Below the pieces are notes generated by a model that was not told the origin of the DNA, made no database searches, and saw only the letters and a program-made list of their open reading frames with translations. A DNA stretch of 64,000 nt, taken from assembly GCF_900176005.1 (NCBI RefSeq), contig NZ_LT838272.1:763587-827586 (forward strand), in the 5' to 3' direction. This document shows positions 39,541-44,688 of this stretch, piece by piece (within the stretch, counting starts at the first letter, position 1; the number at the start of each line of letters is the position of its first letter). The stretch is from Thermanaeromonas toyohensis ToBE. GTDB taxonomy: Bacteria; Bacillota; DSM-521; Neomoorellales; Neomoorellaceae. The translations under genes were made by a program, and so were the position numbers.

Positions 39541-40302
39541 ATGGGCAAACTTTATCAGGTAAGAGGTATAGTCTTATCCACCCGGGATTTTCAGGAAAAC
39601 GATCGGATATTAAATATCTTAACTCCAAGCAAAGGTAAAATCACAGCTATAGCCAAAGGGGTACGCAAGGCCACAAGCAGCTTACGCAGCGGCACCCAGC
39701 GGTTGTGTTTGGCTCGGTTTCTCCTTTATGAAGGTAAAAGCCTGGCCATAGTTACCCAGTGCCAGGTGGAAGATTTTTTTGGCCCTGTGAGGGAAAGCCT
39801 GGAAAGGCTTTTAACAGCTTGTTATTTGGCGGAGATAGCTGAAGCGGTTACGGTACCTGGACAGCCTAGTTCCGGTATGTTTGGGCTCCTTAAGGGAAGT
39901 TTAACCCTTCTTACTAGAGAAGATCCGTTTCTGGTAGCCCGTACTTTTGAAGCCAGGACCATTAGTCTCCTAGGATTAGCTCCCCGGTTGGGTTCTTGCG
40001 CTGCCTGTGGAGGAACTTTAAGTTCACGAGGACCGGTAGCGGTATCCCCGGCTGCGGGGGGTGCTTTATGTCCTTCCTGCCAGGGAGGTTATGGCCCAGA
40101 ATATTACCTTTCGCGGGAGAGTTTGGGTGCCTGGCAACGTTTAAGCGATTTAAGGGGGAAAAACCTCCATTGTTTAAAACTTTCCGCCCGATGTCGGGGA
40201 GAATTAGAGGAAGTTTTGCCTGCCTATTTGGAATACTATCTAGAAAGAAAGCTAAAATCCCGGAGACTACTCCACCTTGAGGAGGATGGACATGAGCACT
40301 GA
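39541..40302 (+). CDS. recO: DNA repair protein RecO
   Basis: Recombination mediator that loads RecA with RecF and RecR. An OB fold at the N-terminus (VRGIVLSTRDFQENDRILNI) is followed by a helical domain with a zinc finger: CAACGG and LCPSC near residues 157-182. Length is 253 aa. Position after era-yqzL is conserved. Its 3' end overlaps the DUF4342 gene by 11 bp. Confidence 0.94.
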   Translation: MGKLYQVRGIVLSTRDFQENDRILNILTPSKGKITAIAKGVRKATSSLRSGTQRLCLARFLLYEGKSLAIVTQCQVEDFFGPVRESLERLLTACYLAEIAEAVTVPGQPSSGMFGLLKGSLTLLTREDPFLVARTFEARTISLLGLAPRLGSCAACGGTLSSRGPVAVSPAAGGALCPSCQGGYGPEYYLSRESLGAWQRLSDLRGKNLHCLKLSARCRGELEEVLPAYLEYYLERKLKSRRLLHLEEDGHEH

Positions 40303-40741
40303 ATTGGATAAAATCGATATCCTCCGGAAGCGCTTGGGGCTGACTTATCGTGAAGCTAAGAAAGCCCTAGACGAGGCAGGAGGGGATGTTATCGAAGCCT
40401 TGATCAGGTATGAGGAGGGGAAGAAATCCGAAGTAGTTGAACAAATAGAAACCTGGAGCAGCAAAATTTTGGCCCGGATTAAGGAAATATTGCAAAAAGG
40501 TCAGGCTACTAAAATTAAGATTAAAAAGGATGGAAAAACAGTAGCAGAGATACCGGCCACGGCTGGTGCCTTGGGTGTACTGGGGGTCTTAGCCAGTACG
40601 GAGCTAGCTATCCTGGCCGGGATCAGTACAGTGGCAGCCCTCTTTAACCGCTATACCTTGGAAATAGAGCGTCCAGGCGGGCAGGTAGAAGAGCACGCCC
40701 TCGATTTAAGGGATAAAGAGCAGGAAATGGGTAGAAGTTGA
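40292..40741 (+). CDS. DUF4342 protein with UBA-like N-terminus
   Basis: A 149-aa protein. Residues about 5-45 form a UBA/TS-N-like three-helix module ([28 protein letters not shown]) like that of EF-Ts or NAC. The C-terminal half matches DUF4342, with a short amphipathic or membrane-associated segment ([22 protein letters not shown]). Start ATG 40292 has GGAGG 6 bases upstream. Function unknown; the gene is translationally coupled to recO and precedes glyQ. Confidence 0.78.
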
Positions 40742-40766
40742 CAATCTCCACCTCCTTTGATAAATT
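40738..40766 (+). promoter_or_regulatory. probable sigma-A promoter of glyQS
   Basis: A perfect TTGACA (40738-40743) overlapping the DUF4342 stop, a 17-bp spacer and TAAATT (40761-40766). The transcript would begin about 40773, directly before a terminator-like hairpin. Confidence 0.7.
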
Positions 40767-40784
40767 ATCAAGCGGAGGAAGGCT

Positions 40785-40810
40785 CCCGTCCCTGGTGGGG
40801 CGGGTTTTTT
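40785..40810 (+). terminator. attenuator-like terminator in the glyQ leader
   Basis: CCCGTCCC (40785-40792) pairs with GGGGCGGG (40797-40804) around TGGT, followed by six T. It lies only about 12 bases after the predicted transcription start and before the glyQ start. GGAG (40774-40777) could pair with CTCC (40783-40786) and compete with the stem. The CGTCCCT string resembles T-box terminators, but the T-box bulge TGGNACC and stem I are absent. Confidence 0.7.
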
Positions 40811-40860
40811 ATGTAGGACGGTACCCAATTATCTTTATAGTGAAGGAGTGCCCGAAGCAC

Positions 40861-41856
40861 GTGAATTTCCAGGAGTTGATCCTTGCCCTCCAGGAATTTT
40901 GGGCCCGGCAAGGCTGTGTTATCCAGCAGCCTTATGATTTAGAAAAAGGGGCGGGGACTATGCACCCGGCCACTTTCTTGCGCGTTTTGGGACCTGAGCC
41001 CTGGCGCGTGGCTTACGTGGAACCATCTCGCCGGCCTACTGACGGACGTTACGGAGAGAATCCCAACCGCCTTCAGCATTACTACCAGTTCCAGGTTATA
41101 CTTAAACCTTCTCCCCCAGACGTTCAGGATATTTATCTAAAAAGCTTGGAATACATAGGTATAAATCCACTGGAGCATGATATCCGGTTTGTAGAGGATA
41201 ACTGGGAATCACCTACCTTGGGGGCCTGGGGGCTGGGCTGGGAGGTATGGTTGGATGGCATGGAGATCACTCAATTTACTTATTTCCAACAATGCGGAGG
41301 TTATGACTTAAAGCCAGTGAGCGCAGAGATTACCTACGGCCTGGAACGTCTGGCCATGTATATTCAGCAGGTGGATAGCATTTTTGACATTGAGTGGGTA
41401 GATGGTATCACTTATGGAGATATTCACCACCAAGGAGAGGTAGATTACTCCCACTATAATTTTACCGCGGCTGATATCTCTATGTTGTTTTCCCTTTTCA
41501 ATGCTTATGAAGCGGAAGCCAAACGGGTGATTGAGCAAGGGCTGGTTCAGCCTGCCTACGATTATGTCCTTAAATGTTCCCACACCTTTAATTTGCTTGA
41601 CGCCCGGGGGGCCATAAGCGTTACAGAGAGGACAGCCTATATAAGCAGGGTTCGTCACCTAGCCCGCCTTTGCGCGACCGCGTATCTCGAGCAGAGGGAG
41701 AGGTTGGGTTATCCCCTCCTTAAGAAATGCTCTCCAAGGCTTCCGGGACCGGGAGAAGGAGCAGTTCATATGAAGGTCCCCGTGAGAGGAACTAAAGAAG
41801 GAGCCTACGGCACCCGGCAAGACCTTAAAGATAGCCTCGACATCAAGGAGGGGTAG
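40861..41856 (+). CDS. glyQ: glycyl-tRNA synthetase alpha subunit
   Basis: Class II catalytic subunit of the alpha2-beta2 bacterial enzyme. It starts [18 protein letters not shown] and includes [17 protein letters not shown], the class II motif 2 region [17 protein letters not shown], and the motif 3 region [10 protein letters not shown]. Length is 331 aa, about 35 more than usual because of a C-terminal tail. The GTG start at 40861 is set by the family N-terminus; AAGGAG lies 12 bases upstream. The longer frame from 40738 would run through the terminator. glyS follows after 3 bp. Confidence 0.94.
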
Positions 41857-41859
41857 AAC

Positions 41860-43950
41860 GTGGCCCGGGACTTTATCTTGGAAATAGGTACGGAAGAGAT
41901 GCCAGCACGAGTGATACCTTCTACCTTAGAGCAATTGGAAGAACTGGCTTCCAACCTCTTCCGAGAAGAGCGTTTGGTATATCAAAATTTGGTAGCCTAC
42001 GCTACTCCACGACGCCTGGTTTTATATGTAACCGGACTGGCTGAGGAACAAGAGGAGCTGGTGAAAGAAGTAAAAGGTCCGCCGGTAAGGACAGCCTTTA
42101 CTCCCGAGGGCCAGCCTACCCGGGCGGCTTTGGGCTTCGCCCAAAGCCAAGGTGTGGCAGTAGAAGAGTTGGTGATCCGTTCTTTACCCGGGGGAGATTA
42201 TGTGTTTGCTATTAAGAAGGAAGTTGGCCGGCCGACTTTAGAGGCCTTGCCTGGTATCTTGACCAAATTAGTAGAAGGTCTAAATTTTCCCCGCCCTATG
42301 CGCTGGGGTGATCTGGACTGGCGGTTCATTCGACCGGTAAGGTGGCTTCTGGCCCTCTTTGGTAGCGAAGTTGTTCCTTGGGAATTGGCGGGGCTCAAAG
42401 CTGATCGGTTTACTTACGGTCACCGATTTTTAGCTCCGGGACCGCACCCGGTACCTTCTCCCCAGGCTTATTTCCAAGTACTGGAGAAGAACTATGTAAT
42501 AGTGGATCACCGGCGCCGGCGGCAACTCATATGGCAGCAAGTGCAGAACCTGGCTCAAGAAGCTAATGGGCGGGTGGAAGAAGATCCTGAACTTCTAGAG
42601 GAGATAACCTTCCTAGTAGAGTATCCCACAGCTTTACTCGGCAGGATAGAAGAAAAATACCTCAATCTTCCTGAGGAAGTAGTTACCACCCCCATGCGCG
42701 GACACCAGCGCTATTTTCCTGTACGGGATGGCCAGGGGAAGCTTTTACCCCTCTTTATTGCTGTCCACAATGGTACAAAAACCTACGTTGATAACATACG
42801 GCCGGGGTACGAGAAGGTCCTCAAAGCCCGCCTGGCCGATGCAGCTTTCTTCTACCAGGAAGATCGCAAAAGCCCCTTGGCCAGTAAAGTGGCTAAGCTT
42901 AAGGAGATACTTTTCCAGGAGAACTTGGGTACCATGTTGGACAAGACCCGGCGGATAAAACAACTTTCTTTATACTTAGCTCGGGTTTTAGATCTACCGG
43001 ATAAAATTTACCCTTACATAGAACGTACTGCTGAGCTGGCCAAAGCCGATTTAGTTACCAATATGGTCTATGAATTTCCGGAGCTCCAGGGTATTATGGG
43101 ATACTACTACGCTACAGCAGATGGGGAGGAAAGGGAAGTTTGTGAAGGGATAAGGCAGCATTATTGGCCCCGTTTTTCTGGGGACCGCATACCAGAGTCC
43201 CTTACAGGCATGGTTGTAGGCCTGGCCGATCGATTGGATACGTTGGTGGGTTGCTTTGCTTGTGGCCTTATTCCTACAGGTTCCCAGGATCCCTACGGGT
43301 TGCGCCGTCAAGCCCTAGGGATGGTGATCATGGCCGTGGAATTGGGATTAAAATTTTCCCTAACAGAGGCCATTTCTACTGCATATAAGACCTATATGAA
43401 CGAACGCATTGTGCTCCCCCGGTCCTTAGAAGAGGTTAAAGAAGAACTCATGCAGTTTTTCCGGGGAAGGATGGAATATATCTTAAGCGAAAAAGGAGTA
43501 CGCTATGATGTGGCAGATGCTGTACTGGCCGTAGGTTGGGATGATTTAGCGGATTCTTATGCTCGGGCCCGCGATCTGGAAACTTTTCGCCAGGAGGGTG
43601 ATTTCGCCGGTCTTCATACTGCCTTTACCCGGGCCTTTAACCTAGCCCGCCAGGCTCCTGAGAAGGCAGAAGTGCTCGAAGAAAGCTGCTTGACGGAAGA
43701 AGCTGAACGAAGATTATACTTGGCCTTACAGGAAGCTAGGGCAAAGGTTCTCCCTTATTTGGCTCAAGGGGATTACCTTAAGGCCCTACAAATTTTAACC
43801 TCTTTACGGGAACCTATTGATGTCTTCTTTGATAAGGTTCTTGTTATGGCCCCGGATCCTGAGGTACGGCGCAACCGGTTAGCTCTGCTGCAAGGGGTAA
43901 CGAACCTTGTGTTGCAGGTGGCTGATTTTTCCCGCCTGGTTCCTGCATAG
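41860..43950 (+). CDS. glyS: glycyl-tRNA synthetase beta subunit
   Basis: Beta subunit, needed for tRNA-Gly binding. The 696-aa product starts FILEIGTEEMPARVI and has the GPPVRTAFTPEGQPTRAALGF and PMRWGDLDWRFIRPVRWLLAL segments. The HD-like region DLVTNMVYEFPELQGIMG follows, then a C-terminal DALR anticodon domain. GTG start at 41860 after AAGGAGGGG. It forms a two-gene unit with glyQ. Confidence 0.96.
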   Translation: MARDFILEIGTEEMPARVIPSTLEQLEELASNLFREERLVYQNLVAYATPRRLVLYVTGLAEEQEELVKEVKGPPVRTAFTPEGQPTRAALGFAQSQGVAVEELVIRSLPGGDYVFAIKKEVGRPTLEALPGILTKLVEGLNFPRPMRWGDLDWRFIRPVRWLLALFGSEVVPWELAGLKADRFTYGHRFLAPGPHPVPSPQAYFQVLEKNYVIVDHRRRRQLIWQQVQNLAQEANGRVEEDPELLEEITFLVEYPTALLGRIEEKYLNLPEEVVTTPMRGHQRYFPVRDGQGKLLPLFIAVHNGTKTYVDNIRPGYEKVLKARLADAAFFYQEDRKSPLASKVAKLKEILFQENLGTMLDKTRRIKQLSLYLARVLDLPDKIYPYIERTAELAKADLVTNMVYEFPELQGIMGYYYATADGEEREVCEGIRQHYWPRFSGDRIPESLTGMVVGLADRLDTLVGCFACGLIPTGSQDPYGLRRQALGMVIMAVELGLKFSLTEAISTAYKTYMNERIVLPRSLEEVKEELMQFFRGRMEYILSEKGVRYDVADAVLAVGWDDLADSYARARDLETFRQEGDFAGLHTAFTRAFNLARQAPEKAEVLEESCLTEEAERRLYLALQEARAKVLPYLAQGDYLKALQILTSLREPIDVFFDKVLVMAPDPEVRRNRLALLQGVTNLVLQVADFSRLVPA

Positions 43951-44049: not shown

Positions 44050-44688
44050 GTGCAACTTTCGCCGCGGCAGGAAAAGATTGTGGAGATTGTCAAGCGCCAT
44101 GGCCCTATTACCAGCCACCAGATTGCGGAAATGCTTAATTTGACTAGGGCAGCCTTGCGGCCTGATTTGGCTATCTTGACCATGTCAGGTATACTAGAAG
44201 CCCGGCCTCGAGTGGGATATTTTTACCAGGGGAGACCCGCCCGGGCCCTGGTAGCCGAGGAACTAAAAAAAATAAAAGTGGGAGATGTAAAGGGGTTACC
44301 TAAAGTCATAAGATACGATGCTTCAGTATATGATGCCATAGTGACCTTATTTTTGGAAGATGTAGGGACGCTTATGGTGGTAGATAGCGAGGGCCATCTA
44401 GAGGGGGTAGTATCTCGTAAGGACTTACTTAAGGCGGCAATAGGTGGCACTGCCAATCTACAGACCATGCCGGTTTCTGTAGTTATGACCCGTATGCCTA
44501 ACATTATCTGCACCACCCCTGAAGAAAGCGTCCTGACTGCAGCCCAAAAAATAATTGAGCATGAAGTAGATGCCCTGCCGGTAGTGCGCCCAGTGGCGGG
44601 TAAAGAAAAAAAATTGGAGGTTATCGGCCGGATCACTAAAACCACCATCACTCGCCTATTTGTAGAACTGGGCACGGCCGACAGGTAG
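44050..44688 (+). CDS. ccpN: CcpN-type repressor with HTH and two CBS domains
   Basis: A 212-aa regulator with an N-terminal winged helix ([20 protein letters not shown]) and a CBS pair covering about residues 75-205 ([24 protein letters not shown]). The CcpN family represses gluconeogenic genes in Bacillus and responds to nucleotide signals through CBS domains. Here it heads ccpN-ppsR-ppdK, which control pyruvate/PEP interconversion. GTG start at 44050 follows GGGTGGTGA. Self-control by the inverted repeat upstream is likely but untested. Confidence 0.88.

Follow-up and report, generated by a model that had tools for sequence, protein, structure and literature searches.

The glyQS genes of Thermanaeromonas toyohensis ToBE raise the question of why an intrinsic terminator should stand at the very start of the transcript of an essential aminoacyl-tRNA synthetase gene, and of how this terminator is related to the T-box whose last part it seems to contain. 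We addressed this question in a stretch of 64,000 nucleotides (the window, to which all coordinates refer; the glyQS locus and the gene preceding it lie on its forward strand), and by comparing the glyQ leaders of related genomes. The answer that we prefer, to which we give a probability of roughly 0.58, is that a glyQS T-box survives here only as its frame, which works as a fixed promoter-proximal attenuator and not as a sensor.

Organization of the glyQS leader

The genes glyQ (40861-41856, GTG start; PF02091, E = 2.8e-155) and glyS (41860-43950; PF02092, E = 4.4e-213) encode the alpha and beta subunits of glycyl-tRNA synthetase, and AAGGAG at 40843-40848, as read from the sequence, is the likely Shine-Dalgarno sequence of glyQ. 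They are preceded by a gene for a DUF4342 protein (40286-40741, its exact start being uncertain; PF14242, E = 5.2e-23 when scanned as 40295-40741), whose stop codon overlaps the -35 box of the glyQS promoter. This promoter (40738-40766), recognized from its sequence and from its conservation in the family, consists of TTGACA at 40738-40743, a spacer of 17 nt, the dinucleotide TG at 40758-40759 and TAAATT at 40761-40766. An earlier note on this DNA described it as perfect. The -35 box indeed agrees with the consensus at 6/6 positions and the spacer is 17 nt long, but the -10 box matches TATAAT at only 4/6 positions, so that the description holds for the -35 box only. If transcription starts 7 nt past the -10 box, at about 40773, the predicted leader ahead of the terminator (40773-40784, with GGAG at 40774-40777) is only about 12 nt long, and a stem I with its specifier loop cannot fit in it. 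The terminator itself (40785-40810) is of the intrinsic kind, a GC-rich hairpin followed by a U run: an 8-bp stem-loop at 40785-40804, with CGTCCCT at 40787-40793 inside it, is followed by six T (40805-40810). Taking 40773 as +1, it begins at about +13, and it ends 50 nt ahead of the glyQ start codon. The same note had proposed an attenuator-like arrangement on glyQS, in which the predicted transcript runs into the terminator almost at once, and this is borne out.

Three further features of the locus were considered. The perfect 15-nt palindrome TTGATAAATTATCAA at 40756-40770, which spans the -10 box, was dropped as a candidate operator because it is not kept in G001 or G006. An N-terminal extension of GlyQ, or a leader frame joined to glyQ, was rejected as well: it contains stops in 10 of the 17 family genomes, and is open in seven, that of the window included. 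After glyS, a gene for a protein with HTH and CBS domains, probably a transcription regulator, is located at 44050-44688 and possibly belongs to the same operon.

As to the strength of the two signals, the exact string TTGACA-N14-TG-N-TAAATT is present in three copies in the 3.33 Mb genome, and its reversed control in none. The computed energy of the terminator stem-loop is about -16.1 to -16.2 kcal/mol, and -10.3 kcal/mol at 60 C, a temperature at which every computed folding energy is weaker. Hairpins of -13 kcal/mol or below directly before at least five T occur twice on the plus strand of the window and not at all on its minus strand, and none was found in ten first-order Markov sequences of window length (one strand each). 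Loose scans of 1.2 kb revealed no excess, either of consensus promoters (two found, shuffle mean 1.4) or of terminators (two found, shuffle mean 1.2), and the fold of the 40-nt window leader had a z-score of -1.85, with 11/200 shuffles equally good. Conservation among relatives is stronger evidence than these loose scans or the leader fold, and it is on conservation that our case rests.

Conservation in the host family

A glyQ match was obtained in 50 of 61 genomes, and the upstream region was usable in 49 of them, that of G021 being cut by a contig end. These 49 leaders comprise 20 from the host order (17 from the host family and 3 others) and 29 from elsewhere in the phylum sample. Within the family the match was present in 17 of 18 genomes; the one lacking it, G017, is 58% complete. 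The promoter pattern TTGACA-N17/18-TGnTA...T was found upstream of glyQ in all 17 family genomes (that of G007 needs a longer upstream reach, and a shorter search gave 16/17), and in 16 of them the promoter is followed by a hairpin with a T-rich tail. The remaining leader, G005, has a hairpin with a poor T run, as read from its letters. In seven relatives, the distance between the end of the hairpin and the glyQ start codon is only 23-34 nt. No separate promoter fits in such a gap, and transcription of glyQ in these genomes must therefore cross the terminator.

In the leaders L014 (G007), L017 (G009) and L018 (G015) the corresponding gap measures 105-450 nt, versus the 23-34 nt of the seven relatives. 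The extra stretch in G007 and G009 ends with a GGGCTGGC...GCCAGCCC hairpin ahead of glyQ, and is perhaps an inserted element.

A search across the family for sites of the form CTCCCGTCCCTG gave 37 matches in 16 of the 18 genomes. Among the 27 that were looked at, 11 correspond to the glyQ element and one (L165) is located at a T-box on the reverse strand of G006, which our T-box regular expression did not catch.

Probable loss of the tRNA-reading part of a T-box

Several lines of evidence show that the T-box features that read tRNA are absent from these leaders. First, Rfam gave no match at the site of the element, with no T-box at 40600-41000 of the window up to E = 10, and no T-box up to E = 5 at the glyQ loci of the 17 family genomes and the 3 other genomes of the order; likewise, among the matches listed for all 18 family genomes, none is located at glyQ. 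Second, the T-box motif (of the GGTGGNACC type), which was searched over as much as 600 nt ahead of glyQ, was found in 0/17 family genomes and in 0/20 genomes of the order, and in 21 of the 29 phylum genomes outside the order. Third, TGGNACC occurs in 0/17 family leaders, and TGGA, the partner of the UCCA end of tRNA, in 1/17. The earlier statement that the specifier and TGGNACC are missing from the window leader was thus correct, and a full T-box further upstream, looked for with Rfam and with the motif, was not found. The window genome does retain five other T-boxes, located in front of genes which, named from their translations, encode an Lrp-type regulator plus an aminotransferase, DAHP synthase, cysE-cysS, thrS and a serine-pyruvate-type aminotransferase. 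Among the matches listed, each of the 18 family genomes has from three to at least six Rfam T-boxes. Since other T-boxes are retained in all of them, T-box control as such has not been lost from the family.

The string CGTCCCT points to the origin of the terminator. It is present in 47/47 T-box-bearing glyQ leaders, namely 21/21 of the phylum sample and 26/26 of a set of 80 named loci, the other 54 of which have no T-box. Within 300 nt of glyQ, it is found in none of the 65 non-family leaders that lack a T-box, a set made up of 3 leaders from the order, 8 from the phylum and the 54 named ones (L105 among them with only 77 nt of upstream sequence); at 300-450 nt upstream it occurs in 3/54 of the named T-box-less loci (L047, L055 and L112). 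In the family, 12 of the 17 leaders contain CGTCCCT, none of them with a T-box, and the exact string is missing in the other five. Judging from these comparisons, CGTCCCT in the terminator is very probably the last part of a T-box, as had been suspected from the window alone.

The promoter gives a similar picture. In 13 of the 21 T-box relatives, the pattern TTGACA-N17/18-TGnTA...T is located 169-247 nt before CGTCCCT, no promoter of this pattern being recognized in the other eight, and it is present in 1/11 T-box-less leaders outside the family. The distance from the -10 box to CGTCCCT is 20 nt in the window genome (G000) and in G001, and ten members of genus g7 show distances of 57-59 nt. 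Together, the distribution of CGTCCCT and the promoter spacing of the relatives indicate that the sensing part was lost, and that the promoter and the terminator stayed. The simplest reading would be that the stretch between them disappeared at the root of the order or close to it.

A DUF4342 homologue is located upstream of glyQ in 17/17 family genomes, in G018, and in 8/10 of the T-box genomes compared (G025 being weak and distant). A GlyQ tree was built from 30 of the 49 genomes; one branch (97/87) parts the family from ten T-box rows, but only 6/27 of the inner branches are well supported. Among the ungrouped rows without a T-box, G018 is placed among the family, G020 next to the T-box rows and G027 within them, which implies that other losses of a T-box occur. 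Two relatives from the order, G018 (L026) and G019 (L128), also lack a T-box and show a hairpin with a T-rich tail upstream of glyQ, its letters differing from those of the family; by eye, no terminator was seen before glyQ in G020.

A fixed attenuator as the best explanation

The promoter, the terminator, their conservation and the lack of tRNA-reading parts are established by sequence comparison, which also argues strongly for descent from a T-box. In the explanation that we favor, the ancestral promoter and the T-box terminator would have been kept, and the tRNA-reading body, some 150-230 nt that began with stem I and ended with the TGGNACC bulge, would be gone. The strong extended -10 promoter would fire, most RNAs would terminate at a length of about 38 nt, and those that escape termination would become the glyQS mRNA, the strength of the promoter compensating for the loss at the terminator. 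The latter would also halt read-through from the era-recO-DUF4342 genes upstream. Since the tRNA-sensing part seems to have been lost, the element probably acts as a constant brake and does not sense; we infer the start site, the termination efficiency and the absence of regulation at the window leader. It should be noted that, if an essential gene carried nothing but a fixed brake, this brake would be expected to disappear easily, and yet a terminator persists.

The locus offers a readable case of a riboswitch minus its sensor, in which the promoter and the terminator are kept family-wide in genomes that still hold other T-boxes. With it, one can study directly how an essential aminoacyl-tRNA synthetase gene is affected by a T-box terminator that stands alone, and whether a new signal can take over an existing expression platform.

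Alternative explanations

A possible, though doubtful, alternative is that the element is a regulated attenuator that does not depend on tRNA, in which the switch portion of the T-box persisted and came under the control of a protein, a small molecule or an RNA acting in trans. The observations in its favor come from relatives of the window genome. Genus g7, G002 and G005 have a longer leader with a first hairpin (of the GGCUGGCC/GGCCGGCC type). This hairpin sequesters the 5' strand of a second helix, GCCAGGGGC/GUCCCUGGC with two additional pairs, in which that strand can pair with the 5' arm of the terminator, and which is predicted to block the terminator. When the RNA was cut before the terminator 3' arm, a nine-pair helix formed in 7 of 12 leaders (G005, G007, G008, G009, G011, G012 and G014) and a shorter one in G002, G010 and G016, whereas G013 and G015 folded otherwise. 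Compared with dinucleotide shuffles, pairing of the upstream stretch with the arm gave p values of 0.002 in G002, 0.03 in G005 and 0.004-0.14 across genus g7 except for its tenth genome, G015 (0.53), where no excess was seen; G003 (0.40) and G004 (0.30) showed none either, and under mononucleotide shuffles some of the g7 values were weaker (up to 0.20, apart from G015). In the 12 leaders, 97.7% of the cells of the antiterminator-like helix pair, a proportion reached by 4/500 shuffles, although related rows can beat such shuffles without any structure; the corresponding figures are 93.4% (500/500 shuffles as high) for the first hairpin and 93.3% (78/500) for the terminator. No double (compensatory) base changes were found in any helix.

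The window genus and G006, on the other hand, do not possess these parts. The pairing of GGAG (40774-40777) with CTCC (40783-40786), which the earlier note had put forward, is present in the letters, but is not supported as a meaningful antiterminator in the window genome: the 10-nt stretch before the terminator pairs with the terminator 5' arm no better than dinucleotide shuffles do (p = 0.78), and the values for G001 and G006 (0.80 and 0.71) show no excess either.

The extra hairpin and the antiterminator-like helix in most sister-clade genomes suggest regulation there. In our own reading, the helix of g7, G002 and G005 resembles the A1 and A2 helices of the T-box antiterminator minus the tRNA-binding bulge. 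That the bulge was exactly deleted from the g7 antiterminator is no more than a suggestion, since g7 has a longer linker to the terminator than T-boxes do. A further, rather unlikely reading is that in this family the switching half of the T-box survived the loss of the tRNA sensor and became, in g7, G002 and G005, a new three-state, tRNA-independent glyQS attenuator (first hairpin, bulge-less antiterminator, terminator), and that the window clade was cut down to, or never went beyond, a bare promoter-terminator pair.

It is improbable that the terminator merely ends the era-recO-DUF4342 operon, with the glyQS promoter sitting after it. Such an arrangement would agree with the position of the hairpin, which begins 43 nt past the DUF4342 stop codon. 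However, a scan of 40201-41400 found no promoter-like site downstream of 40810, the 23-34 nt available in the seven relatives leave no room for one, and the conserved family promoter precedes the terminator. A start of glyQS past 40810, which the earlier note had set against the attenuator, finds no support in these data. Very improbable, too, is a short regulatory RNA that ends at the terminator, with glyQS being made by leakage: in genus g7, the terminated RNA is predicted to have about 80 nt, and the single g7 leader tested (L013) folds better than most shuffles (z = -2.23), but the RNA would measure only about 38 nt in the window, no second copy of the leader was found elsewhere in the genome, and both the descent from a T-box and the place upstream of glyQ are more in keeping with a leader. 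Finally, the idea that this is a shortened but working T-box, still sensing tRNA-Gly, is hardly credible, since the T-box-derived look of CGTCCCT and the terminator, and the five other T-boxes of the genome, are set against the lack of room for a stem I, the absence of an Rfam match, and 17/17 family leaders devoid of both the T-box motif and TGGNACC (with TGGA in one).

Comparison with known systems

No description of the window leader was found in the passages of running text examined from the literature searched, which included PMC2494555, PMC7583486, PMC7778990 and PMC9413887; the word Moorella is absent from the main text of PMC2494555.

Like the attenuators of trp and his operons that work through a leader peptide (PMC9413887), the window leader would have a terminator that sets the level of read-through. 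Unlike them, it has about 12 nt before the terminator, which is too short to hold a ribosome site and a peptide, and the one leader frame that was checked, which is continuous with glyQ, is interrupted by stops in 10/17 genomes. The translational T-boxes with an ultrashort stem I (ileS type; PMC7583486) are similar in that they are T-boxes reduced in their tRNA-binding part. They retain an abbreviated stem I together with stem II and the discriminator, and bind tRNA, whereas the window leader is without these parts and its output is a terminator. With respect to the glyQS T-box itself (RF00230), the window leader differs in having no stem I with specifier, no stem III region and no TGGNACC antiterminator bulge, and in the 20 nt, instead of 169-247 nt, that separate the -10 box from CGTCCCT; the gene, the kind of promoter, the position of the terminator and the presence of CGTCCCT in the terminator 5' arm are the same in both.
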